IMG/VR virus record: IMGVR_UViG_3300007735_000913
Coordinates: 1 to 22,870 of that record
Length of the DNA stretch: 22,870 nucleotides
Direction: 5' to 3' (one strand)
Source: a virus
The translations under genes and the position numbers were made by a program. The notes beneath the pieces are model-generated. The model had not been told where the DNA came from, did not search any database, and saw nothing but the letters and a program-made list of their open reading frames with translations. Shown piece after piece: positions 2,403 to 16,634 of this stretch (its first letter is position 1; the number at the start of each line of letters is the position of its first letter).

Positions 2403-2573
2403 ATGCCAAGACCAAGAAATGAAATGAGTAAAGACGAACTCAAAGTTCGTGTATTGAAATTAAAATACAAGTTATATGAAGATCAAGTAGATCAACTTAT
2501 TACGAATCCTAAGGTTCTGTCTCATAAATATCTGAACAAAGTTCTTGACACACTTGATGAGTATAGGTATTAA
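2403..2573 (+). CDS. Small conserved-type phage protein, 56 aa (paralogue of the ORF at 17887)
   Basis: A 56-residue basic protein (MPRPRNEMSKDEL at the N-terminus, YLNKVLDTLDEYRY at the C-terminus) with no recognised domain. Its reality is supported by a paralogue at 17887-18051 that shares the MPR-N start, the KDE motif and the YLNKVLD-x3-E-[YF]RY ending. Both copies start at the T-tract of an intrinsic terminator and lack a conventional Shine-Dalgarno. The last 4 nt overlap the 3' end of the convergent homing endonuclease gene. Function unknown; the charged helical sequence would suit a small nucleic-acid or protein-binding factor, but that is a guess. Confidence 0.7.
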   Translation: MPRPRNEMSKDELKVRVLKLKYKLYEDQVDQLITNPKVLSHKYLNKVLDTLDEYRY

Positions 2574-3286
2574 ATTAAAAATATAATACCCTCCTCTAAT
2601 TGTTTCTTATATTTTTGAAATCCTACCTTATTGTCTTTCATCCATTCAGTTACACTTTTCCAAGTTTTAGTTCCATCACTAATATTATGTCTCCTGGAAT
2701 TTAAAAGTTTATTTTTATGCTCTTCTGATAGTTTTGTTCCGTACATAGGATTTCCTTCACCAGAATGCATTTCACTCAATTTTTGTCTAACGTCTGGTCT
2801 TTTAGCAGGATTGTTATTACCAGTCATAAGTTTTCGTTTATCATCTCTATACTTATCATTTCTTAAAACTACCTCATAAATACCTGCTCGTTCACTTACA
2901 AAAAATCTTCCTTCAATATTTGTGTTATAATAATCATCAGTCATTAGAACATCTCTTTTGAATTGTTCCATAGTTTCATAATAAGACATAGATTTTTTAT
3001 GAGGACATAAGTAAAGTATTTCTCTTAAGAATTTATCTCCTCCTATAAGTTTTACATCTTCATTTAATTCGTCACAGGATCCAAAGTAATCTTTCCAATC
3101 ACTCTCTTTGGTTTTTCTTCTTCCTGTTTTTTTATCCTTTCTTCTTGTCCAAAAAGATTTCTTACCAACATATTTTCTATCGTTTGTTAAATTTGTTATT
3201 AGATAAACAAATCCTTCCATTCCTTTAGGGGCATCTATATAATCTTCGTCGTTATATTTCCAAGTCATAGAAATACTTTCTTTCAT
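2570..3286 (-). CDS. GIY-YIG homing endonuclease with NUMOD3 repeats (Seg-like)
   Basis: A 238-aa free-standing homing endonuclease. The N-terminal GIY-YIG nuclease domain is seen in GFVYLITNLTNDRKYVGKKSFWTRR (residues about 25-50; FVY and YVG are the GIY and YIG equivalents, with the following Lys/Arg). The C-terminal half has two NUMOD3-type DNA-binding repeats, TGNNNPAKRPDVRQKLSE and GEGNPMYGTKLSEEHKNKL. It is one of only two minus-strand genes here, an orientation expected for a mobile gene inserted between nrdB and the next operon. A TATAAATA late-promoter box lies only 7 nt upstream of the first ATG, so the Met at codon 7 (about 3268, preceded by GAAAG) may be the true start. No intron is evident. 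Confidence 0.88.
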   Translation of the reverse strand: MKESISMTWKYNDEDYIDAPKGMEGFVYLITNLTNDRKYVGKKSFWTRRKDKKTGRRKTKESDWKDYFGSCDELNEDVKLIGGDKFLREILYLCPHKKSMSYYETMEQFKRDVLMTDDYYNTNIEGRFFVSERAGIYEVVLRNDKYRDDKRKLMTGNNNPAKRPDVRQKLSEMHSGEGNPMYGTKLSEEHKNKLLNSRRHNISDGTKTWKSVTEWMKDNKVGFQKYKKQLEEGIIFLI

Positions 3287-5166: not shown

Positions 5167-5172
5167 AGTCTC

Positions 5173-5220
5173 ATAGGCAGCGGGGGTCCAAACTCCGTAT
5201 AAGTCCTGCCCCTTCTATGC
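5173..5220 (+). ncRNA. GC-rich structured leader at the 5' end of the tRNA transcript
   Basis: Just downstream of the 5138 promoter, CATAG (5173) pairs with CTATG (5216), enclosing GCAG/CTGC and an inner hairpin (CGGGGGTCC...ACTCCG). The segment is far richer in G+C than its surroundings and has no convincing ORF. It could be a structured 5' leader or a small RNA; no known family recognised. Confidence 0.3.
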
Positions 5221-5254
5221 CTCTCAACGATGCACAAACCAGGAGGGTTCTTAA

Positions 5255-5326
5255 GGGCACATAGTTAAAAGGACATAACCCGATTCTTCTAAAATTGTAT
5301 TCCTGGTTCGATTCCAGGTGTGCCTG
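5255..5326 (+). tRNA. tRNA-Arg (UCU)
   Basis: Full cloverleaf: acceptor GGGCACA/TGTGCCT (G1.U72), D stem GTTA/TAAC, anticodon arm CGATT-CTTCTAA-AATTG, T arm CCTGG-TTCGATT-CCAGG, G73. Anticodon TCT reads AGA. CCA is not encoded, so the host must add it. Confidence 0.9.
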
Positions 5327-5345
5327 TTGGAGTATAATGCTCCAT
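5326..5345 (+). other. 3'-trailer hairpin of tRNA-Arg (GTTGGAG...CTCCA)
   Basis: TGGAG-7 nt-CTCCA begins right at the discriminator base. tRNA-Asp (6166-6186) has the same arrangement, so it may be a processing or stability element. The following sequence to 5412 has no gene; 5373-5383 is the exact reverse complement of tRNA-Arg D-arm bases 5269-5279. Confidence 0.4.
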
Positions 5346-5412
5346 ATATAAACTGATAGAGGGTAAGTCCCTGTTATGTCCTTATGAGATATATCACACT
5401 TACTCCATCATA

Positions 5413-5484
5413 CCGTTGGTAGTCTAGTGGTCAGGACAGGCAGACAATGCACTTGGAGTTTGGGTTCGATTCCCGATCAACGGC
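5413..5484 (+). tRNA. tRNA-like gene 1, anticodon unresolved
   Basis: Acceptor CCGTTGG/TCAACGG, D arm GTCT-AGTGGTCA-GGAC and T arm TTGGG-TTCGATT-CCCGA are convincing and correctly spaced. The anticodon arm (AGGCAGACAATGCACTTGGAGT) forms no 5-bp stem in any register I tried, and there is no T33-type loop. Bases GACAGG-n-AGACAATGCACTTGG are shared with the second tRNA-like gene at 6679. It could be a degenerate tRNA, a tRNA mimic, or a tRNA needing unusual processing. Confidence 0.55.
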
Positions 5485-5513
5485 AAACACAACATACACA
5501 CAGGAGTAAAACA

Positions 5514-5711
5514 ATGACACCTTACGAACTTCGTTTTGAGATTTTTAAGCAAGCAAATGGTCTTGCTCAAGATGAATATCATGCAGCATTTGAAACTGCT
5601 GAAGAGTGGAACAAAAGTAATTCAGTAAAAATGGATTATCCAGAGTTTCCTTCTTATGAAAAAATTGAAAAACTTGCAGACAAAATTAATAACTTTGTAA
5701 GTTCTAAATAA
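5514..5711 (+). CDS. Cyanophage-conserved small protein (MTPYELRFEIF), 65 aa
   Basis: The start is the ATG at 5514 because AGGAG lies at 5501-5505; the longer open frame upstream runs through the tRNA-like gene. The sequence MTPYELRFEIFKQANGLAQDEY, then AAFETAEEWNKSN and YPEFPSYEKIEKLADKINNFVSSK, is a pattern I recognise from T4-like cyanophage genomes, where it is a small conserved hypothetical. Helical, acidic, no known domain. It is embedded in the tRNA cluster, probably on the same transcript. Function unknown. Confidence 0.82.
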   Translation: MTPYELRFEIFKQANGLAQDEYHAAFETAEEWNKSNSVKMDYPEFPSYEKIEKLADKINNFVSSK

Positions 5712-5816
5712 AATAGTGGGGTGGCAACACCCATGTTAGTATTTTTTCGTAGGAAGTGCAACCCCGCTCGCTGGTCTAGTATTCTGTGTCTGGATGAAGG
5801 GAAAGGCAATTCTGTT
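5712..5816 (+). other. Non-coding stretch with GC-rich inverted repeats
   Basis: No credible gene. GGGTG-GCAA-CACCC (5719-5732) forms a tetraloop hairpin, and TGGGGT near 5716 can alternatively pair with ACCCC near 5760. It precedes a strong terminator, so it may be the 3' untranslated part of the 65-aa gene transcript. Confidence 0.3.
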
Positions 5817-5845
5817 GGGGAAAGAATTTCTTTCCCCTTTTCTAT
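5817..5845 (+). terminator. Rho-independent terminator
   Basis: GGGGAAAGA, ATT loop, TCTTTCCCC (perfect 9-bp stem), then TTTTCT. Confidence 0.88.
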
Positions 5846-5850
5846 ACCTT

Positions 5851-5907
5851 GTGCCACTTGTGCGAGTGTCCCTAAAGTTACCCACAGACCTCAAATCGTG
5901 GTATTCT
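5851..5907 (+). promoter_or_regulatory. GTGCCACTT-type promoter element, copy 1
   Basis: GTGCCACTT at 5851-5859 with TATTCT at 5902-5907 (first base to first base 51 nt). There is no -35 consensus at normal distance. It lies between a terminator and tRNA-Lys. Same architecture as 7103-7160 and 8602-8659. The 60 nt between the -10-like hexamer and the tRNA hold nothing else recognised. Confidence 0.5.
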
Positions 5908-5970
5908 AAGGGAGTGGTGAGGGAAGCAGTCCTCTTGAACCTTGAAAACTGAATATTTACCATATTACTT

Positions 5971-6051
5971 GGGTCAGTTCCCCTAGCGGCGACGGGACCG
6001 AGCTTTTAACTCGTGATACAAACACCGTGGGTTCGAGTCCCACCTGACCCA
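5971..6051 (+). tRNA. tRNA, probable Lys (UUU), with unusual 12-13 nt variable arm
   Basis: Acceptor GGGTCAG/CTGACCC, T arm GTGGG-TTCGAGT-CCCAC, anticodon arm CCGAG-CTTTTAA-CTCGT with anticodon TTT. Odd features: the D stem pairs best as TCCC/GGGA, leaving one linker base instead of two, and the variable region TGATACAAACACC can form a GTG/CAC mini-stem. The long variable arm is class-II-like (Leu/Ser), but the loop sequence favours Lys. Confidence 0.7.
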
Positions 6052-6094
6052 CTTGGTAGATTATCATATTATAAAGTTTTGAATTTAAATTTAA

Positions 6095-6166
6095 GTCCCT
6101 ATAGTGAAGTGGTTATCACGCTTACCTGTCTAGTAAGAATCTGGGATTCAAATTCCCATATGGTCG
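6095..6166 (+). tRNA. tRNA-Asp (GUC)
   Basis: D arm GTGA-AGTGGTTA-TCAC, anticodon arm CTTAC-CTGTCTA-GTAAG (anticodon GTC), T arm TGGGA-TTCAAAT-TCCCA, G73. The acceptor GTCCCTA/TATGGTC has U2.U71 and C5.U68 mismatches, so it may be suboptimal or decaying. Confidence 0.75.
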
Positions 6167-6216
6167 TTGGAGATTTATCTCCATATTCCAGGTAATCTAA
6201 TAATCTTTTAGATTAC
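6166..6216 (+). other. Two inter-tRNA hairpins after tRNA-Asp
   Basis: GGAGAT-TT-ATCTCC (6169-6182) abuts the discriminator base like the trailer of tRNA-Arg. GTAATCTA (6192-6199) pairs perfectly with TAGATTAC (6209-6216). Neither is followed by a T-run, so RNA processing or stability roles fit better than termination. Confidence 0.45.
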
Positions 6217-6223
6217 TCTGCGT

Positions 6224-6299
6224 GCCGTAGTAGACAAACTGGTTAAAGTCATCACCCTTTCAAGGTGAATTTTTGGGGGTTCGACTCCCCTCTACGGTG
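6224..6299 (+). tRNA. tRNA-Glu (UUC)
   Basis: Acceptor GCCGTAG/CTACGGT (G1.U72), D stem GAC/GTC, anticodon arm TCACC-CTTTCAA-GGTGA (anticodon TTC), T arm GGGGG-TTCGACT-CCCCT, G73. A TTCCCA/TGGGAA hairpin follows at 6300-6316. Confidence 0.88.
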
Positions 6300-6327
6300 T
6301 TCCCAATAAATGGGAAATTAGTTAAAA

Positions 6328-6399
6328 CCGGGTGTAGTAGAAAAGTTATAACTCTGCGTTTGGGACGCAGCAAAGAGGGGGCAGTACCTTCCACTCGGA
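6328..6399 (+). tRNA. tRNA-Pro (UGG) with non-canonical T loop
   Basis: Acceptor CCGGGTG/CACTCGG with the C1-G72 typical of bacterial tRNA-Pro, anticodon arm CTGCG-TTTGGGA-CGCAG (anticodon TGG, G37), A73. The T stem GAGGG/CCTTC forms, but the loop is GGCAGTA instead of TTCRANY, and the D stem (GTAG/TAAC) has one mismatch. It is a tRNA by position and anticodon arm, but its elbow may be altered. Confidence 0.75.
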
Positions 6400-6400
6400 T

Positions 6401-6418
6401 TGAGAACTTAAGTTCTCA
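6401..6418 (+). repeat. 18-bp perfect palindrome between tRNAs
   Basis: TGAGAACTT followed by its exact reverse complement, 1 nt after tRNA-Pro and 27 nt before tRNA-Leu. No T-run follows. Possible processing hairpin or protein-binding site. Confidence 0.6.
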
Positions 6419-6445
6419 CCTTCCCATTCGTACATCTTGTGCCTT

Positions 6446-6518
6446 GCCCTAGTATTCCAACGGTAGAGAAAATGAACTTAAAATTCATACAGTGTAAGTT
6501 CGAATCTTATCTAGGGTA
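6446..6518 (+). tRNA. tRNA with UAA anticodon (Leu) but class I architecture
   Basis: Acceptor GCCCTAG/CTAGGGT (G1.U72), D arm TTCC/AGAA with one mismatch, anticodon arm ATGAA-CTTAAAA-TTCAT (anticodon TAA), variable loop of only about 5 nt, T arm GTAAG-TTCGAAT-CTTAT, A73. Bacterial tRNA-Leu normally has a long class II variable arm, which is missing here. Confidence 0.82.
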
Positions 6519-6547
6519 TTGACTATCTTTCATAGATAGTCTATAAT
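6519..6547 (+). promoter_or_regulatory. Sigma70-type promoter inside the tRNA cluster with a perfect inverted repeat as spacer
   Basis: TTGACT (6519-6524), 17 nt, TATAAT (6542-6547). GACTATCT (6521-6528) and AGATAGTC (6534-6541) are exact inverted repeats with a TTCAT loop, so the hairpin fills the promoter. It directly precedes tRNA-Ser. Confidence 0.8.
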
Positions 6548-6551
6548 TAAA

Positions 6552-6633
6552 GGAGAATAGCACCGATGGTCGGTAAATCGTCTTGAAAACGATGCCAGAC
6601 GAAAGTCTGATTGTTCGATTCAATTATTCTCCG
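6552..6633 (+). tRNA. tRNA-Ser (UGA), copy 1
   Basis: Class II tRNA: acceptor GGAGAAT/ATTCTCC, D stem ACC/GGT, anticodon arm ATCGT-CTTGAAA-ACGAT (anticodon TGA), variable arm CAGAC-GAAA-GTCTG, T arm GATTG-TTCGATT-CAATT, G73. A second copy at 9785 differs by compensatory base pairs. Confidence 0.93.
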
Positions 6634-6678
6634 TTGGTAGTCGTTAGGCACATATCCTAAAAAGACGCCACATTTATA

Positions 6679-6750
6679 CCTCTGGTGGTCTATTGGTAAG
6701 GACAGGAAGACAATGCACTTGGGTACTGAGTTCGATTCTCAGCCAGAGGA
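6679..6750 (+). tRNA. tRNA-like gene 2, anticodon unresolved
   Basis: Acceptor CCTCTGG/CCAGAGG, D arm GTCT-ATTGGTAA-GGAC, T arm CTGAG-TTCGATT-CTCAG, A73: all well paired and correctly spaced. The anticodon arm AGGAAGACAATGCACTTGGGTA does not fold, and it shares GACAGG-n-AGACAATGCACTTGG with tRNA-like gene 1 although the acceptor and T stems differ. Assigned as tRNA-like only. Confidence 0.55.
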
Positions 6751-6761
6751 AACTTTATTTT

Positions 6762-6832
6762 GGGGGATTAGTTAAACGGTATAACAGGTGCTTTGCAAGT
6801 ACTCATTAACAGTTCGATTCTGTTATCTTCCA
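6762..6832 (+). tRNA. tRNA-Ala (UGC)
   Basis: Acceptor GGGGGAT/ATCTTCC with G3.U70 and G4.U69, D stem GTTA/TAAC, anticodon arm GGTGC-TTTGCAA-GTACT (anticodon TGC), T arm AACAG-TTCGATT-CTGTT, A73. The G3.U70 pair is the alanine identity element. Confidence 0.9.
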
Positions 6833-6857
6833 TTTAACATCATTTCATAAATCGTGC

Positions 6858-6865: not shown

Positions 6866-6997
6866 TTGATGTTGAAGAGATTGGAAAGTCTGATGAACGA
6901 CACGAGAGTTCGAATCTCTCCAGATCCATTACTTGGGTCTGCTCTGGAATCGACCGTTCATAAAGGTTCTAATTGTTGACGCAACAAACAAACAAAC

Positions 6998-7048
6998 GCA
7001 AACAAAATTGTTGCATTTTCGAGGACTTCTGTACCTTCTTTAGTATAG
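6998..7048 (+). other. tmRNA tag-peptide reading frame, 16 codons plus TAG
   Basis: GCA AAC AAA ATT GTT GCA TTT TCG... encodes ANKIVAFSRTSVPSLV. The start ANKIV-FSR matches marine picocyanobacterial tags as I remember them (ANKIVSFSRQTAPVAA in Prochlorococcus), with the same length of 16. The C-terminus is SLV instead of VAA. Confidence 0.88.
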
Positions 7049-7186: not shown

Positions 7187-7717
7187 ATGTTCCATTCCAT
7201 TTTTGAAGATGGTTCTCTCCAAGATTATATCGATCAAAATGTACAAGATCCTTGGATTGGTACACATTTTGAAGGTTATGTGTTTATGTCACCAAGACAC
7301 AAAGGTATTTTTGGTGAAAGATTTGTTTCTAAGTATTTTGTGTTGAGGGGAAGTAAAGTAGAAAAACCAAAAAATACTGGACACGATAGAATAATTGATG
7401 ATAAATTTTCAGAGATCAAGTTTTCTCTTGCTACCCGTGGTAAAAAAGGTAAAATAAATGAAGATCAGTTTATCATAAATCACGTCTCAAAATGTAAAGA
7501 TTGGGAACGTCTTGTTTTCTTTGGTATAAATCCATCTGAAGAAGACTGCCGTTTATTTTGGTTCTCTAAAGAAGATTTTATTCAGCACCTTGAGAGTGAT
7601 AAATGTTTATTTGAACCTCAACAAGCTGGTAAAACTGGTGGTAATGATGATTATATCTGTAAAAATATCAATAAATTGAGGAGTATGCCTTTTGTAAAGT
7701 CTATAGATCAATGGTAA
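7187..7717 (+). CDS. PD-(D/E)xK restriction-endonuclease-like protein
   Basis: A 176-aa protein carrying a PD-(D/E)xK-type active-site pattern: IFGERFVSKY (Glu44), GHDRII (Asp67) and FSEIKFS (Glu76, Lys78), i.e. D-x8-E-x-K, in the usual order. After this comes a strand-like segment WERLVFFGINP, as in type II restriction enzymes. The context supports it: its stop codon overlaps the start of a methyltransferase stub, and a complete but frameshifted methyltransferase follows. Specificity cannot be read from the sequence. It could act as a phage-encoded restriction enzyme, a host-DNA-degrading nuclease or a homing enzyme. It is transcribed from the GTGCCACTT-type promoter upstream. Confidence 0.65.
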   Translation: MFHSIFEDGSLQDYIDQNVQDPWIGTHFEGYVFMSPRHKGIFGERFVSKYFVLRGSKVEKPKNTGHDRIIDDKFSEIKFSLATRGKKGKINEDQFIINHVSKCKDWERLVFFGINPSEEDCRLFWFSKEDFIQHLESDKCLFEPQQAGKTGGNDDYICKNINKLRSMPFVKSIDQW

Positions 7718-7797
7718 ATCTTCATTTAGGTGATTGTTTCCCAATTACAAATAGATATTTTGCTAAATTTGACTTGGTTTATAAATCATGCTAAAAT
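7711..7797 (+). pseudogene. N-terminal stub of a DNA methyltransferase
   Basis: The ATG overlaps the nuclease stop codon (ATGGTAA). The 28-aa product starts MVNLHLGDCF and has FDLVYKSC near the end, like the beginning of beta-class methyltransferases (VNLHLGDC...IDLVLTDPPY), but it stops just where the catalytic DPPY would be expected. A sigma70-type promoter occupies its 3' end, suggesting that later sequence replaced the rest of the gene. The original partner of the nuclease may have been lost here. Confidence 0.45.
7769..7797 (+). promoter_or_regulatory. Sigma70-type promoter, TTGACT-N17-TAAAAT
   Basis: TTGACT 7769-7774, TAAAAT 7792-7797, 17-nt spacer, 45 nt upstream of the methyltransferase ATG. 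Confidence 0.7.
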
Positions 7798-7841
7798 TAA
7801 TATGTCACATCAAGAACGGAATAGAATTTAATCTAACATAA

Positions 7842-8658
7842 ATGACTATATTTAATATTCACAAAGAAGATTATGTAGGGGAGATTGTACCCAATAGTTT
7901 AGTCAGGGCGGATTGTCTTGATGCTATGAAGTACATTGCAGATGGATCAGTAGATCTGATTCTCTGCGATCTCCCCTACGGTTAGCACTACTGCTTGCAA
8001 ATGGGATAGTATTATTCCATTGGATAAGTTATGGGAACAGTATAATCGTATTTGTAAGAAAGATGGTGCAATGGTGTTCACTGCGGCACAACCATTTACT
8101 ACTATACTTGCAGAATCTAATCTTGAGAACTTTCGCTATGAATGGATTTGGGAAAAACCTCAAGGAACTAATCCAATGAATGCCAAGATTATGCCACTCA
8201 AATCACACGAAAACATTTTGGTATTTTATAGAAAGAAACCAACATATAATCCTCAGATGTGGTATTCAACTCCTTATAGTGGTTTCTCATCAGATACCAG
8301 TAAGATTGGTGAAGTTTATGGTAGTGCAAAGAGTAAGCATCGTGACAATCCAGAGGGATCAAGATATCCCAAAACAGTATTGCGATTCAAACAAGAAAAA
8401 GGTTTGCATCCTACACAGAAACCTGTAGAAATGATGGAATATTTAATTAAGACATATTCTAATGAGGGTGATGTTGTACTGGACAATACTATGGGTAGTG
8501 GTACAACTGGTGTTGCCTGCATAAATACAAATAGAAATTTTATTGGAATTGAAATGGAAGAAAATTATTATAAACTTTCAGAACAGAGGATTTCGAGCAC
8601 TGTGCCACTTACTAAACCGGCACATAACACCAGCAATGCCCTTGCAGACCTGCTATAA
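7842..8658 (+). pseudogene. Beta-class DNA methyltransferase interrupted by a frameshift
   Basis: Frame 1 (ATG 7842) reads 47 codons to the catalytic motif IV, LILCDLPYG, then hits TAG at 7983. The +1 frame continues as TTACKWDSIIPLDKLWEQ, the normal continuation of this family, through a target-recognition region (EWIWEKPQGTNPMNAK) to LHPTQKPVEMMEYLI and SAM-binding motif I, VLDNTMGSGTTGVA. Motif IV before motif I defines the beta class (adenine-N6 or cytosine-N4). An extra TAGC between GGT and ACT explains the shift. The ORF from ATG 8020 lacks DPPY and should be inactive alone. Alternatives are +1 programmed frameshifting at GGT-TAG-C or a sequencing error. Confidence 0.8.
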
Positions 8659-11037: not shown

Positions 11038-11202
11038 GTGGTGGATCCAAAGACCCCCTATGTCCTCGTCGGATGGACTTCAAATATGCCGACTGGTGCG
11101 GGTGAGGATATTGCTGCCTGGTTTCCAATTTCCAGTTAAAGAATTGGTGGCGATCCTGAATTTCAGAAGATGGGTTGCATAAACCCATCTTTTTTTGTAT
11201 AA
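11038..11202 (+). pseudogene. Possible coding remnant, GC-rich, one internal stop
   Basis: From GTG 11041 the frame reads VDPKTPYVLVGWTSNMPTG then AGEDIAAWFPISS, TAA at 11137, and continues as RIGGDPEFQKMGCIN. Composition looks protein-like and clearly richer in G+C than its neighbours, but there is no ATG and no recognised family. It could be a decayed gene fragment or a tiny GTG-started ORF. The 11023-11168 stretch holds no other gene. Confidence 0.25.
11169..11196 (+). terminator. Rho-independent terminator upstream of the glycan operon
   Basis: GATGGGTT, loop GCATA, AACCCATC (8 bp), TTTTTTT. Confidence 0.88.
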
Positions 11203-11262: not shown

Positions 11263-11922
11263 ATGATTGAAAATTTTTCTTGGGCAATTAATAATAAAGG
11301 AAATATATGGAGGCAATATGTAAGATCTCTTGATGATGATAATGTATCGGAAATATTAGGATCTATTCCTTCTGCGTGGAACGTTCCACCAAAAGGACAC
11401 CATTCATTTGCAAAGTGGTTAGTTGAAAAAGTAAATCCAAAAGTTACTGTTGAACTTGGTGTAGACTATGGATTTTCTCTATTTGTTTGGAGCATTTACA
11501 ACAATGGAAAGGTGTATGGTATAGATAGTTTTTCAACTGAACATCATCAATCCCGAGTTGGAGATGATTATCAATTTGTTATTGATATCAAAGAGAAACT
11601 TAAATTGGATAATTTGAAAGTAATTAAGGGATACTTTAATGATGTTGCAAGTACATGGAATAAAAAAATAGATATTCTCCACATTGATGGTCTTCATGAT
11701 TATGATAATTGTAAAAATGATTATGAAACCTGGAAAAAGTTCCTGAAGAAAAATGGGGTAATAGTTTTTCATGATACAATTTCTTATCCAGATGATGTTG
11801 GTAGATTATTTTCTGAAATTGAACTTCCCAAATTTAACTTCACCAACTCTCATGGATTGGGTGTAGTTTCAACAAATGAAAAACTAATTGAAGAAATACA
11901 AAATACCTTTGGTCAGCAATGA
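11263..11922 (+). CDS. Class I SAM-dependent methyltransferase (Methyltransf_24-like)
   Basis: A 219-aa methyltransferase. SAM-binding motif I is VELGVDYGFSLFVW (residues about 65-78), motif II acidic end VYGIDSF, then ILHIDGLHDYDNCKNDYETW and GVIVFHDT, a His/Asp pattern typical of Methyltransf_24/TylF-like enzymes that modify sugars or small molecules. First gene of an operon of glycosyltransferases, so O-methylation of a glycan is the likely job. Preceded by GGGAGA 12 nt upstream of the ATG. The stop codon overlaps the next start by 4 nt (ATGA). Confidence 0.85.
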   Translation: MIENFSWAINNKGNIWRQYVRSLDDDNVSEILGSIPSAWNVPPKGHHSFAKWLVEKVNPKVTVELGVDYGFSLFVWSIYNNGKVYGIDSFSTEHHQSRVGDDYQFVIDIKEKLKLDNLKVIKGYFNDVASTWNKKIDILHIDGLHDYDNCKNDYETWKKFLKKNGVIVFHDTISYPDDVGRLFSEIELPKFNFTNSHGLGVVSTNEKLIEEIQNTFGQQ

Positions 11923-12716
11923 AAATAGGATTTAATTATCTTGGAAAAATGGGGCAAATTGGAAATCAAATTTTCCAATTTGCTTCAGTTAGGGGAATAT
12001 CTGAATATTACTCAGCAGAATGTTATGTCCCAAAACATGATGAAATTTTTGATGATGGAATGGGTAATAGATATAAAATCATGATTTATGATTTGTTTGA
12101 TATTCCAGAAAAATATATTGGTTATGTTGATAATCCTTTATTATACAAGGAAACTAAATTTTCATACAATGAAGAAGTTTATCAATTAGATCCCAATTAT
12201 GATTATTGTTTAGTTGGTTATTTTCAGACTGAAAAATATTTTCAGAATATTAAAGACCAATTGAAAAAGGAATTAAAATTCAAAAATTATATTCTAGAAC
12301 CTTGTCTAGAAAGTATATCTAATTTTGATTCTCCAATAGCACTTCATATTAGAAGAGGAGACTTTTTGATAAATTCTGGAAATCATTATAATCTTCAATT
12401 AGATTATTATGAGAAAGCTTTAAAAAAATTTGATAATGATAGAGAAGTTATTGTTTTTTCTGACGATCCAGACTGGTGTAAAAAACAAAATATATTCCAT
12501 AGTGACCGATTTATGGTATCAGAGTCGTCAAAGTATATTGATTTATGTCTAATGAGTTTGTGCTCTGATTTTATTATTGCAAACAGTACTTTTAGTTGGT
12601 GGGGTGCATGGCTTTCTGGTAGGGGGAAAGTTATTGCACCTTCCAAGTGGTTTGGTCCAAATCTAATACATAATGATATTAACGATTTATACTTTGGAGA
12701 TTACGAAATTATATGA
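11919..12716 (+). CDS. GT11 family alpha-1,2-fucosyltransferase-like enzyme, copy 1
   Basis: A 265-aa glycosyltransferase of family 11 (FutC/WbsJ type). It has the N-terminal GQIGNQIFQFASVRGIS, YFQTEKYF, the donor-binding motif ALHIRRGDF (around residue 142), SDDPDWCKKQ and NSTFSWWGAWLS near the C-terminus. The family transfers fucose from GDP-fucose to galactose in an alpha-1,2 bond. All signature blocks are intact. It is coupled to its neighbours by 4-nt overlaps and shares much of its sequence plan with the second copy at 14238. The acceptor could be a host surface polysaccharide, phage glycoprotein or DNA; the sequence does not say which. Confidence 0.9.
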   Translation: MKIGFNYLGKMGQIGNQIFQFASVRGISEYYSAECYVPKHDEIFDDGMGNRYKIMIYDLFDIPEKYIGYVDNPLLYKETKFSYNEEVYQLDPNYDYCLVGYFQTEKYFQNIKDQLKKELKFKNYILEPCLESISNFDSPIALHIRRGDFLINSGNHYNLQLDYYEKALKKFDNDREVIVFSDDPDWCKKQNIFHSDRFMVSESSKYIDLCLMSLCSDFIIANSTFSWWGAWLSGRGKVIAPSKWFGPNLIHNDINDLYFGDYEII

Positions 12717-13474
12717 AAAAATTTGCATTATATTATCACATATGGTCTCCCCCAGATAGCGATATTTGGAAACTTTTTATTGATGAACAAATTAAAAGAA
12801 TTTATAAGAGTGGTATTACAAAATACGCTGACGTAAAATGTGGTATCAACGGAAAAAGTTCGTCAAGAGTTTATGAATTTGTAAAAAATCACAGTTGGAT
12901 TAATGTAGTTGAAGTTTCTGATAGCGATGAGCAGTATGAAGGATTTACACTAAAACACCTTTATTGCGATTCACTTTCTGATACTTATGAGAAAGTAGGT
13001 TATATTCATACTAAGGGCATTAGTTTTTTGTCTGGTCATCGTGATCATGATCCAACTAGACCTGGTATTAGAGATTCATCCCAAGACAAGACAATAATTG
13101 CAATTAATAGTTGGAGACACTTTTTGGAATGGGGATGTATTGATATGTGGAAAGAAAATGTTGATAAACTCGATCAACATCATACTAGTGGCGTAAATTA
13201 TAGTCCAGTTCCTTGGCCTCATTATAGCGGTAACTTTTGGTGGGCTAGAAGTGATTACGTTAAAAACTTAGAGCATCCTATTGAAAGGATGAATAAAAAA
13301 AGTGGTTGGGCAGATCAAAGATTGTCATTTGAAAGTTGGATTGGTATTGGAAATCCAAAACCATACAGTATAAAAAACATAATATTCCAAGCATATTACC
13401 CCCAAAATGATGACATATTTCCTTCCCTAGTCGATATTTCTAATTTCTATTCTAATCTACCGAGTTATCAATAA
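12713..13474 (+). CDS. Glycan-operon protein of unassigned family (YIHTKG motif)
   Basis: A 253-aa soluble protein with Trp-rich blocks: VGYIHTKGIS (residues about 97-106), INSWRHFLEWGCIDMW and HYSGNFWWARSDYVKNL (about 169-185). The HTKG...H.-SGNFWW pattern occurs in uncharacterised proteins of polysaccharide clusters that look like GT-A type glycosyltransferases, but I cannot name the family or see a clear DxD. The start overlaps the preceding gene by 4 nt; the stop shares one base with the next ATG (TAATG). A glycosyltransferase role is inferred from context. Confidence 0.72.
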   Translation: MKKFALYYHIWSPPDSDIWKLFIDEQIKRIYKSGITKYADVKCGINGKSSSRVYEFVKNHSWINVVEVSDSDEQYEGFTLKHLYCDSLSDTYEKVGYIHTKGISFLSGHRDHDPTRPGIRDSSQDKTIIAINSWRHFLEWGCIDMWKENVDKLDQHHTSGVNYSPVPWPHYSGNFWWARSDYVKNLEHPIERMNKKSGWADQRLSFESWIGIGNPKPYSIKNIIFQAYYPQNDDIFPSLVDISNFYSNLPSYQ

Positions 13475-14241
13475 TGACAAAATTATCAATTGCTATTCCA
13501 TGTTATGAAATGAATGGATTTGGTTATCAATATTTGAAAGAATGTTTTGATAGTATATTAAAACAAACTTTTGTGGACTATGAAGTTATTATATCTGATC
13601 ATTCTTTTGGTGATGATATAGAGAAGTTATGTGTAGAATATAAAAATTGTTTGAATATTGAGTATTATAAAAATTCTAAACATAAGGGAAATGGACCTTA
13701 CAATACAAATCATGCTTTGATTAAATGTAAGGGTGAGATTGTAAAAATAATTTTTCAAGATGATTTATTTTTTGATAAAAAAGCACTGAAAATAATAGTT
13801 GATAGTTTTAAAAGTTCCGATTATAAATGGTCTTTATGTGGTTTTAATCATACTATCGATGGTAAAATTTTTAGTAGACCGATGATTCCTAAGTGGACTA
13901 CTTATATGCTTGAGGGGGATAATTTACTTGGTGGTCCAACTAATTTTGCATGTAAAAGAGAATATTTGGAGGAATTTGATTATAATATAAAACTTTGCAT
14001 GGATACTGAGTTTTATCATAGAATGAGGTGCAATCATGGATTCCCTTTAATTATTGAAGATATATTGGTTTCTCATCGAGAACATGATAATAGGATAAGT
14101 AAAAACCTTGAATATGATATTGTTATTGAAATTGAAAATAAATCATGGAATATGATTCAAAGTGAACTTGATTATATTCAAACAAAACATCAAGAATTTT
14201 GCGAAATGGATGAGCGTAAGTATCCAGATGAAATATTATGA
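13474..14241 (+). CDS. GT2 family glycosyltransferase
   Basis: A 255-aa inverting GT-A glycosyltransferase: N-terminal nucleotide-binding strand LSIAIPCYEMNGFGYQYLKECFDSILKQ, VDYEVIISDHS, GPYNTNHALIKCKGEIVKIIFQDDLFF with the metal-binding acidic pair (FQDD, around residue 98), and a later GPTNFACKREYLEEFD acceptor region. Membrane segments are absent, so it is soluble or peripheral. It overlaps the following GT11 gene by 4 nt. Donor sugar unknown. Confidence 0.88.
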   Translation: MTKLSIAIPCYEMNGFGYQYLKECFDSILKQTFVDYEVIISDHSFGDDIEKLCVEYKNCLNIEYYKNSKHKGNGPYNTNHALIKCKGEIVKIIFQDDLFFDKKALKIIVDSFKSSDYKWSLCGFNHTIDGKIFSRPMIPKWTTYMLEGDNLLGGPTNFACKREYLEEFDYNIKLCMDTEFYHRMRCNHGFPLIIEDILVSHREHDNRISKNLEYDIVIEIENKSWNMIQSELDYIQTKHQEFCEMDERKYPDEIL

Positions 14242-15032
14242 TTGGGATTAATAACCTTGGAATGAATGGAAGACTGGGAAACCAAATGTTTCAATATGCG
14301 GCATTAGTTGGAATTTCTCATAATTTAAAATATGAATATATTATTCCAAATAATGGAAATGATTTGACTGAGTGTTTTTTATTGGAATCTTGCACAAATC
14401 GTGGATTAATAGATGGAGATGAAGTTTTTTTACATGAGACTCACGAATTTTGTGAAGATATTTTTAATCAGTGTCCTGATGATGTTACGCTGAATGGGTA
14501 TTTTCAAACTGAAAAATATTTTAAGAATGTTGAAAATATAATCAGAAAAGATTTTTCATTTAAAGAAAATATTCAGCAATTGGTTTTTTCTTTGTATAAT
14601 GACCTAAGTGATTATATTTCTATAGTCGTTAGAAGATATAAGGATGATTTTGATTATATTGGATGTTCTGATAACCATAGAAATTTACCTATAGAATATT
14701 ATGAGGAAACTATGAATATTTTTGGTCAAAATCAAAAATATATTATATGTTCAAATGATATTGATTGGTGCAAAAAACAAAAAATATTTCAAAAAGAAAA
14801 TATTATTTTAAACGATGTTGAAGTTGAATGTAAACCTTATTTTGATTTATGTCTTATTTCAAATTGTAAAAATTTTATTATTTCAAATAGTAGTTTTAGT
14901 TGGTGGGGTGCTTGGTTGGGTTCAAATAAAAATAAAAAAATACTTGCACCAAAACAATGGTATGGACAAGGACTTTCTCATATTAATACAAAAGATTTAT
15001 TTCTAGAAGAATGGATGTTAATTAAAAAATGA
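14238..15032 (+). CDS. GT11 fucosyltransferase-like paralogue, copy 2, with altered donor motif
   Basis: A 264-aa paralogue of the gene at 11919. Shared blocks: GRLGNQMFQYAALVGIS, NGYFQTEKYFKNVE, SNDIDWCKKQKIF, YFDLCLISNCKNFIISNSSFSWWGAWLG and LAPKQWYGQ. The diagnostic H-x-R-R-G-D motif is replaced by IVVRRYKDDF (about residues 128-137): the His and the Gly-Asp are lost, but both arginines remain. It may use another donor, have reduced activity, or be a remnant kept for structure. Base composition is even more AT-rich than in copy 1. Coupled by 4-nt overlaps on both sides. Confidence 0.87.
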   Translation: MIGINNLGMNGRLGNQMFQYAALVGISHNLKYEYIIPNNGNDLTECFLLESCTNRGLIDGDEVFLHETHEFCEDIFNQCPDDVTLNGYFQTEKYFKNVENIIRKDFSFKENIQQLVFSLYNDLSDYISIVVRRYKDDFDYIGCSDNHRNLPIEYYEETMNIFGQNQKYIICSNDIDWCKKQKIFQKENIILNDVEVECKPYFDLCLISNCKNFIISNSSFSWWGAWLGSNKNKKILAPKQWYGQGLSHINTKDLFLEEWMLIKK

Positions 15033-15838
15033 TAAATTTAAAGGAAGCAACTTTTATTATTCCTCTACGTATAGAATCTTCCGATCGTCTTCGTAATGTA
15101 ATTACAACGACGGCGTTTTTATTAGAAAATTTTGATACTAATATTATTATTAAAGAAGTTGATAGCGAGTCTATTTTTCAAAAAGAAGCACTTCCAATTT
15201 TGAAAGATATTTTAGATGTTGATCTTAATATTAATCATATTTTTGAACAATCTGATGATTCTTCATTTCATCGACAAAGAGTTTTGAATGAAATGATTGT
15301 GGAGTCAAAAACAAAAGTTGTAGTTAATTATGATTGTGATGTTATTCTTCCTTTAGATTCTTATCACGAAGCATATAGTTGTATTGTTTATAATACTCAT
15401 GATGTTGTATATCCTTATGGTCAAGGAATTTATCAAAAGCAAGTGAATGCAACAGATGAAGTTGTGTCTCAATTTCTAGAAACTGGTGATTATTCTTATT
15501 TTGATAAAAACTCAAAATCTTATATTTCTGATTTTGGTTGGGTTCAATTTTTTAATCGTCAAGTTTATATTGATGGCGGAATGGAGAATGAAAATTTTAT
15601 TGCCTATTCTCCAGAAGATAAAGAGAGATTTTACAGATTTACTACTTTAGGTTATAATGTAGGTAGGATAAATGATTATGTTTATCATCTAGAACATTCG
15701 AGAGGACAAAACTCTTGGTTTACTAACCCATATACGCAGCAAAATAATGCTATATGGGAAGAGATTCAAAAAATGGATATTAATCAATTAAAGGAATATT
15801 ACTCAACTCAAGATTATCTTAAAAAATATAATGGATAG
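15029..15838 (+). CDS. GT-A glycosyltransferase, galactosyltransferase-like
   Basis: A 269-aa enzyme beginning with ATFIIPLRIESSDRLRNV (nucleotide-binding strand), with a DxD motif in VVVNYDCDVILP (about residues 100-111) and the C-terminal block GWVQFFNRQVYIDGGMENENFIAYSPEDKERFYRF followed by RINDYVYHLEHSRG. This block (W..F.R..Y...GG.NE.F..-.-ED.E...R) is the galactosyltransferase C-terminal (glyco_transf_7C-like) signature. It is soluble. It overlaps the GT25 gene by 8 nt. Confidence 0.82.
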   Translation: MINLKEATFIIPLRIESSDRLRNVITTTAFLLENFDTNIIIKEVDSESIFQKEALPILKDILDVDLNINHIFEQSDDSSFHRQRVLNEMIVESKTKVVVNYDCDVILPLDSYHEAYSCIVYNTHDVVYPYGQGIYQKQVNATDEVVSQFLETGDYSYFDKNSKSYISDFGWVQFFNRQVYIDGGMENENFIAYSPEDKERFYRFTTLGYNVGRINDYVYHLEHSRGQNSWFTNPYTQQNNAIWEEIQKMDINQLKEYYSTQDYLKKYNG

Positions 15839-16634
15839 AAACAAGTCTACTTATAAACTTAAAAATATTGGACCAATTTATTATTTAAACCTTGATGGAC
15901 AATTGGAAAGAAGAGAATATATGGAATCTCAATTTAAGTATTGGGAAATAGAAAATTATACTCGTATTTCTGCATATGATGGTCGTGAGGATGATTTGAG
16001 TGACATTATTAGTGGACGTTATCCTGAAATGATGTCTTCTGGTGAGATTGGATGTACTACTTCTCATCTTAAGGCAATCAAACATTGGATGGAAACTTCT
16101 GATAGTCCTTATGCAATCATTATGGAAGATGATTGTAACTTAGATTTGGTAAGATTTTGGAACTTTACTTGGAATGATTTTTATGCAAATCTGCCTTATG
16201 ATTGGGATGTGGTCCAAATTGCGATTATTTGTACTGGGGATATTCACGTTAAACTTCATAAGAGATTTGTAAATGATTTTTCCACAGCATGTTATTTGAT
16301 TAATCGTCATCATGCCGAAAAACTATTGAAGTTTCACACAAGAGGTGAAAAGTATAAACTTGATAATGGATGTAAGCCTCGTCCAGTTGCAGATGACCTA
16401 ATTTATAATTCTGGAAATACATATTCAATTCCTCTTCTTCTTTATAGAATTGAATTGGGTTCTTCCATTCACCCAGAGCATATTGATGCATTTCATAGAG
16501 CAAATTATAATGCCCTGTCTCAATTCTGGGAACAAAATGGTGCTAATATTGACATTAAGGATTATATGAACTATGATCCATACCTGGGTCGGATAACCGA
16601 AAATTCTTCCGCACAACCCCCACCAGAGGGTTGA
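15831..16634 (+). CDS. GT25 family glycosyltransferase (LPS/procollagen galactosyltransferase type)
   Basis: A 267-aa GT25 enzyme: IYYLNLDGQLERREYMESQF at the N-terminus, YTRISAYDGRE, SSGEIGCTTSHLKAIKHW (residues about 65-82), and YAIIMEDDCNL with the metal-binding EDD. Family members transfer galactose or glucose to LPS or to hydroxylysine in collagen. The C-terminus after the catalytic region (DYMNYDPYLGRITENSSAQPPPEG) is a short low-complexity tail. Last gene of the glycan operon; its stop codon lies within the -35 of the next promoter. Confidence 0.88.
   Translation: MDRNKSTYKLKNIGPIYYLNLDGQLERREYMESQFKYWEIENYTRISAYDGREDDLSDIISGRYPEMMSSGEIGCTTSHLKAIKHWMETSDSPYAIIMEDDCNLDLVRFWNFTWNDFYANLPYDWDVVQIAIICTGDIHVKLHKRFVNDFSTACYLINRHHAEKLLKFHTRGEKYKLDNGCKPRPVADDLIYNSGNTYSIPLLLYRIELGSSIHPEHIDAFHRANYNALSQFWEQNGANIDIKDYMNYDPYLGRITENSSAQPPPEG

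Follow-up and report, generated by a model that had tools for sequence, protein, structure and literature searches.

A previously undescribed tRNA-like small RNA is encoded by cyanophages, and two copies of it are located in the window (the whole stretch of DNA analysed, a virus record of 22870 bases, IMG/VR IMGVR_UViG_3300007735_000913). Comparison of homologues indicates that the anticodon arm in this element is replaced by a short hairpin with a bulged adenine and a five-nucleotide loop, on a body with the organization of a tRNA. The role of the element is most likely the binding of a protein or an RNA in the infected cell.

Both copies are on the + strand and are 72 nt long. Copy 1 is at 5413-5484 and copy 2 at 6679-6750, where the earlier note had placed two tRNA-like genes. 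They are enclosed by a tRNA array (5255-6833, + strand), in which ARAGORN also finds tRNAs for Arg, Lys, Asp, Glu, Leu, Ser and Ala. ARAGORN, which that note had proposed as a check, calls both copies as tRNAs, 'His(atg)' for copy 1 and 'Leu(caa)' for copy 2. The anticodons are inconsistent among homologues, however, for which the calls are His, Leu, Val, Cys, '???' or none. The Rfam tRNA cut-off is reached by copy 1 alone (34.8 bits), and the scores with the covariance model of the family (R1) are 89.9 bits for copy 1 and 87.7 bits for copy 2.

Copy 1 consists of an acceptor stem (5413-5419/5477-5483), a D arm (5422-5437), the hairpin, a T arm (5460-5476) and a variable discriminator base (5484). 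The acceptor stems of the two copies are unlike in sequence and yet well paired, as had been noticed earlier (CCGTTGG/TCAACGG in copy 1 and CCTCTGG/CCAGAGG in copy 2). The near identity of their middle parts was also confirmed, as the core GACAGGNAGACAATGCACTTGG occurs twice with no mismatches, with 0.00 occurrences expected from 100 shuffles. Copy 1 belongs to a subfamily with the D loop AGTGGTCA and TGGAGT, and copy 2 to one with the D loop ATTGGTAA. The window therefore contains one element of each subfamily; 16 longer records carry one full-scoring copy each.

The classical five-base-pair stem with a seven-nucleotide loop is truly absent from the middle part, as the earlier note had stated, but its claim that no stem is formed there is wrong for the family. 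In the homologues, this segment covaries as a stem of four base pairs (columns 27-40, 28-38, 29-37 and 30-36), with one bulged A on the 3' side, three pairs below the pentaloop. The sequences of the segment include AGGCA-GACAA-TGCACT, ACCCC-GACAA-GGGAGT, GGGTG-GACAA-CACACA, AGGCG-GACAA-CGCACT, AAGCA-GACAA-TGCATT, ACCTC-GACAA-GAGAGT and AGAGC-GACAA-GCTACG, among others. The pairs hold in 99-100% of 95 distinct 72-mers; among 70 distinct cores the figure is 97-100%, each position shows several pair types, and the bulge is an A in all 70. Double changes are found at all four pairs in an alignment of 35 sequences, and the observed covariation score is higher than those of all 500 shuffles. Three of the hairpin pairs, together with the acceptor, D and T stems, also emerge from RNAalifold without guidance.

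Other arrangements of this segment are less consistent with the sequences. The registers of an unbulged, classical anticodon stem reach at best 76% paired, as compared to 99% for the bulged hairpin, and no register is more than 71% paired when the partner strand of the hairpin is slid along the 95 distinct 72-mers. Single-sequence minimum-energy folds disagree between homologues and were set aside. Pairing of GTCT in the D arm with AGAC in the middle, which had been suggested as a substitute for GGAC, is formally possible in many members (four pairs in 49 of the 70 cores), GAC being part of the loop. This pairing is not supported by compensation: it is broken by the loop GTCAA and by a C at column 30, and 68 of the 70 cores keep an intact ordinary D stem.

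The hairpin of copy 1 (5439-5452, + strand) is assigned from covariation in the homologues, with the loop GACAA at 5443-5447 and the invariant bulged A at 5451, and all four pairs are formed. The hairpin of copy 2 (6705-6718, + strand; loop GACAA at 6709-6713, bulged A at 6717) is assigned from the alignment, the pair counts and the R1 alignment. It has one mismatch, A29-G37, which is seen in no other member of the family. Copy 2 may be under less constraint given the presence of copy 1.

The pentaloop follows the pattern G-N-Y-A-A and is nearly always GACAA, with rare GATAA and GTCAA. When IMG/VR was scanned with a pattern that constrained nothing but portions of the D and T arms and allowed a middle of 12-22 nt, 147 loci were recovered among the matches listed. 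The middle is 16 nt in all of them, and the loops are GACAA (139), GATAA (6) and GTCAA (2). Among 2.9 million viral contigs, scans for members that lack G at the first loop position, or A at the fourth, gave one identical contig, which is not a member, as its flanks fail to form the element. No match was obtained in the same 2.9 million contigs when the bulged base was required to differ from A. Invariance is asserted here solely for positions that were left free in at least one scan, and more divergent members may be missed by these patterns, which fix parts of the T arm or the D arm. With the D arm left free, the family was widened to members with the D stems GTCC/GGAC and GTCT/TGAC and with NNG in place of TGG. 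The TGG on the 3' side of the hairpin, which had been fixed in the early patterns, is thus not invariant (TAG, TTG, CGG, TCG and GGG are also found). The 15-mer AGACAATGCACTTGG by itself is unspecific, and many of its viral matches are unrelated sequence.

Fixed sequence is confined to the loop, the bulge and portions of the D arm, and the sequence of the stem varies freely. As the loop and the bulge are kept while the stem is not, the head of the hairpin is probably a recognition surface. A special function rather than random decay had been proposed for the two genes, and this proposal is borne out by the conservation of the family, its invariant loop positions and bulge, its compensatory changes and its spread over phage families. 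The reason given for it, that sequence is kept and structure lost, is the reverse of what is observed, as structure is kept and the stem sequence drifts.

The loop is identical to that of P22 boxB, where GACAA adopts a GNRA tetraloop-like fold and the C is turned outward to contact the N peptide (PMC12550061). The two variable loop positions of the element, 2 and 3, are those that a GNRA-like fold tolerates, which from sequence alone is consistent with such a fold and with base 3 flipped out. On the other hand, the hairpin of the element is carried on a tRNA body, has a bulged A and is free in its stem sequence. The shared loop, and the frequent position of the element upstream of late structural genes in isolates, would also fit a cis-acting signal in the RNA as it is transcribed, for instance an antitermination or regulatory site of the boxB kind. 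We consider this highly improbable, as such a site has no need of a complete tRNA body whose acceptor and T stems covary, elements without a second tRNA at their locus share no downstream gene, and boxB stems, to our knowledge, have no bulged A.

The body of the element is that of a tRNA. Its acceptor and T stems covary, and the contacts of the elbow are tRNA-like. The pair between the D and T loops, G19-C56, becomes A-U in S-SZBM1. At the Levitt-like columns 15 and 47, one subfamily has U-A and the other has G-U. Columns 26 and 41 mostly carry A-U or G-A, a kind of pairing also known from positions 26-44 of tRNAs. On the origin of the element the signs are mixed: apart from the element, only tRNA-Glu and tRNA-Gln have the D arm GTCT...GGAC, and in several genomes the ordinary tRNA that scores best with the family model is tRNA-His. 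An acceptor stem extended by a pair of base -1 with the discriminator is not supported (60 pairs observed, 61.5 expected).

There are several differences from ordinary phage tRNAs (RF00005), with which the element shares the cloverleaf, the elbow contacts, the position in tRNA arrays and the processing context. The element has no anticodon, and instead of a seven-nucleotide loop it has the five-nucleotide GACAA loop, closed by a covarying pair and accompanied by the bulged A. The discriminator base varies (A in 108, T in 71, C in 29 and G in 5 of 213 elements), and position 7-66 is mismatched in most of the family. A search with the family covariance model, of the kind that had been recommended, places the members at 69-98 bits and the ordinary tRNAs of the same phages at no more than 41 bits, with none between. 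Homologues with normal arms, which would have pointed to simple degeneration, are absent among the members.

These features bear on the possibility of a decoding tRNA with an odd anticodon arm or of a decaying tRNA pseudogene. The tRNA calls by ARAGORN for both copies and by Rfam for one, and the broken pair in copy 2, are in its favor, and we nevertheless regard it as extremely improbable. The varied discriminator and the absent anticodon indicate neither a decoding tRNA nor a decaying one. The anticodon is moreover inconsistent among homologues, and the closing pair of the short loop covaries. A degenerate tRNA or pseudogene is ruled out by the covariation together with the invariant loop and bulge, which decay would not yield. 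The function of the element is almost certainly outside translation. The tRNA-like domain of tmRNA also lacks an anticodon; in comparison, the element is a single closed unit of 72 nt with an intact D stem and has no tag reading frame.

Homologues were found by BLAST in six cyanophage isolates (S-PM2, S-CREM1, S-RIM32, S-RIM8, DSL-LC03 and S-SZBM1), and the site is unannotated in all six. The S-CREM1 genome paper reports 24 tRNAs and Rfam matches to abiF, wcaG, manA and glnA (PMC9964418), and the element is not mentioned in the parts of that account examined. Rfam has no family of its own for the element. More than 200 homologous loci are present in IMG/VR, and the family is larger than the set of loci sampled. 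The carriers are T4-like myoviruses and S-CBS2-like siphoviruses, and the element is located in tRNA arrays or alone. Another tRNA is within 1.5 kb for 209 of 213 sampled elements, the nearest always on the same strand and at a median distance of 5 nt. Solo elements, with no second tRNA at the locus, are found at L318, L319, L321, L344, L354 and others, and also at L328, which matches S-CBS2-like siphoviruses.

Two sequence patterns of the element are absent from 84,980 prokaryotic genomes, and it was not found in plasmids. An attachment-like site, one of the functions suggested earlier, is unlikely given this absence and the T4-like phages, which are lytic, among the carriers. The element was also not found in 12 other cyanophage isolates, including the tRNA-rich S-CRM01 and S-CBWM1, and is therefore dispensable. 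Its presence in unrelated phage families with shared hosts suggests a target in the host. Matches in Streptomyces phages share the T arm alone, and the Jay2Jay region was set aside. That region (L278:1464-1537) is an unannotated tRNA-like sequence without an ARAGORN call, and it recurs in many related Streptomyces phages.

The element is a neighbor of abiF RNA in some of these phages. abiF acts as the RNA antitoxin to AbiF, a toxic HEPN protein (PMC12373285; PMC12737573). Like the wcaG and manA RNAs, abiF RNA (RF03085) is a non-coding RNA of the same cyanophage RNA arrays, and the element differs from all three in sequence and fold. As context, tRNA-Arg in the window is preceded at a distance of 7 nt by an abiF RNA (5211-5247, + strand; 44.7 bits against an Rfam cut-off of 37). 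Among the cyanophage loci examined, all 51 abiF or abiF-like RNAs have a tRNA (42) or the element (9) no more than 15 nt downstream. A short pattern served to recognize the abiF-like variants, in which the inner part is longer, and not all of them reach the Rfam cut-off. In these positions the element stands in the place of a tRNA 3' of abiF, which would fit cutting by RNase P, and the placement suggests release by this enzyme.

The element could accordingly be a processing module, a tRNA-shaped handle that lets RNase P free a neighboring RNA such as abiF from a longer transcript. The strict spacing of the 51 RNAs and the solo elements directly 3' of abiF in several phages agree with this explanation. 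It is quite unlikely, as it leaves the invariant loop and bulge unexplained, solo elements without abiF exist (L328, L354 and L226), and other elements are located amid real tRNAs that could serve the same purpose.

Another explanation, and a special case of the binding role, is a decoy or inhibitor of a host nuclease that targets tRNAs, in which the tRNA body would lure the enzyme and the hairpin would remain uncut or trap it. Phage tRNAs counter tRNA-cleaving defences (PMC10264068), anticodon loops are cut by the HEPN RNase Cas13a (PMC11042736), of which AbiF is a relative (PMC12373285), and abiF antitoxin-like RNAs adjoin the element in 17 loci. However, a decoy of an anticodon nuclease should retain the recognized anticodon arm, and the arm of the element is wholly different. 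Moreover, inside tRNA arrays the element is beside abiF 3 times, as compared to 8.7 expected, and Rfam finds abiF in two of the six isolates with the element and in one of the 12 without it. By these counts, elements in arrays show no preference for a place beside abiF, abiF does not define the function of the element, and an obligate partnership is unsupported. We judge the nuclease decoy to be unlikely.

The reading that we favor, with moderate confidence, sees the element as a natural 'tRNA scaffold', which would act in trans by binding a factor and sequestering or redirecting it. We infer its expression, processing, target and effect as follows. The element would be transcribed with the tRNAs or alone, and would be excised by RNase P together with the enzymes that process tRNA 3' ends, and it might receive a CCA tail. 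Its likeness to tRNA would give the RNA stability, and decoding would be impossible with no anticodon, a five-nucleotide loop and a shortened arm. The head of the hairpin would probably be recognized through its pentaloop, with a putative GNRA-like fold in which the third base turns outward as in P22 boxB, and the element would thereby capture or redirect a factor. A host factor is more likely than a phage factor, since unrelated phage families share the RNA. Engineered tRNA scaffolds, in which a protein-binding hairpin replaces the anticodon arm, work (PMC3753655). The element resembles them in having another hairpin in this place on a tRNA body; it differs in being natural and phage-borne and in having one conserved hairpin, with a partner that is putative.

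A broader proposal, which we offer tentatively, is that the element represents a new class of viral RNA. The tRNA body would be a stable chassis for the display of a GNRA-like hairpin with its bulged A, and this hairpin would capture a host factor in the course of infection. This RNA would be traded between unrelated cyanophage families and sometimes coupled with an abiF antitoxin-like RNA as a counter-defence cassette.

Several other features are located near the two copies. The segment just 5' of copy 2 (6632-6671, GTAGTCGTTAGGCA...AAAGACGCCA) recurs 5' of the S-SZBM1 element (L277, about 1898-1934) and is a possible RNA motif. The segment before copy 1 (5327-5412, GAGGGTAAGTCCCTGTTATGTCC...) resembles S-SZBM1 sequence beside its element (L277, about 2077-2130), and has no Rfam match in the window. 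The region 5171-5411 has 79% identity to S-SRM01. A permuted tmRNA (Rfam RF04321, tmRNA_permuted; 51.8 bits) is at 6879-7042, separate from both elements. Its likely tag is ANKIVAFSRTSVPSLV*, with a cyanobacteria-like start and an end that is not -AA; the corresponding sequence at a second phage locus is ANNIVRFERIAVAA* (L338:2462-2654, - strand). The resume codon was placed by eye. A DNA methylase gene (N6_N4_Mtase) and an adjoining 176-aa ORF without a Pfam match, possibly a restriction-modification pair, are at 7187-8658, between two parts of the tRNA region. A SegE-type GIY-YIG homing endonuclease with NUMOD3 (2570-3286, - strand) is located between the gene for the small subunit of ribonucleotide reductase and the tRNA region. 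Further downstream, a wcaG RNA (11060-11161, 61.4 bits) precedes a run of ORFs resembling sugar-transfer genes (11263-16634).

In the isolates tested the element goes unannotated, and ARAGORN mistakes it for a tRNA (His, Leu or undetermined). That abiF-like RNAs are so strictly placed just 5' of a tRNA or of the element is a testable lead in its own right. Since the carriers include cultured phages with cultured hosts (S-PM2 and S-CREM1), the partner of the element can be sought directly. The element would be a naturally occurring equivalent of the tRNA scaffolds made in the laboratory, and would form a new family of non-coding RNA in Synechococcus viruses, and if it counters a defence that targets RNA or tRNA, it would help to explain the large RNA arrays of cyanophages.
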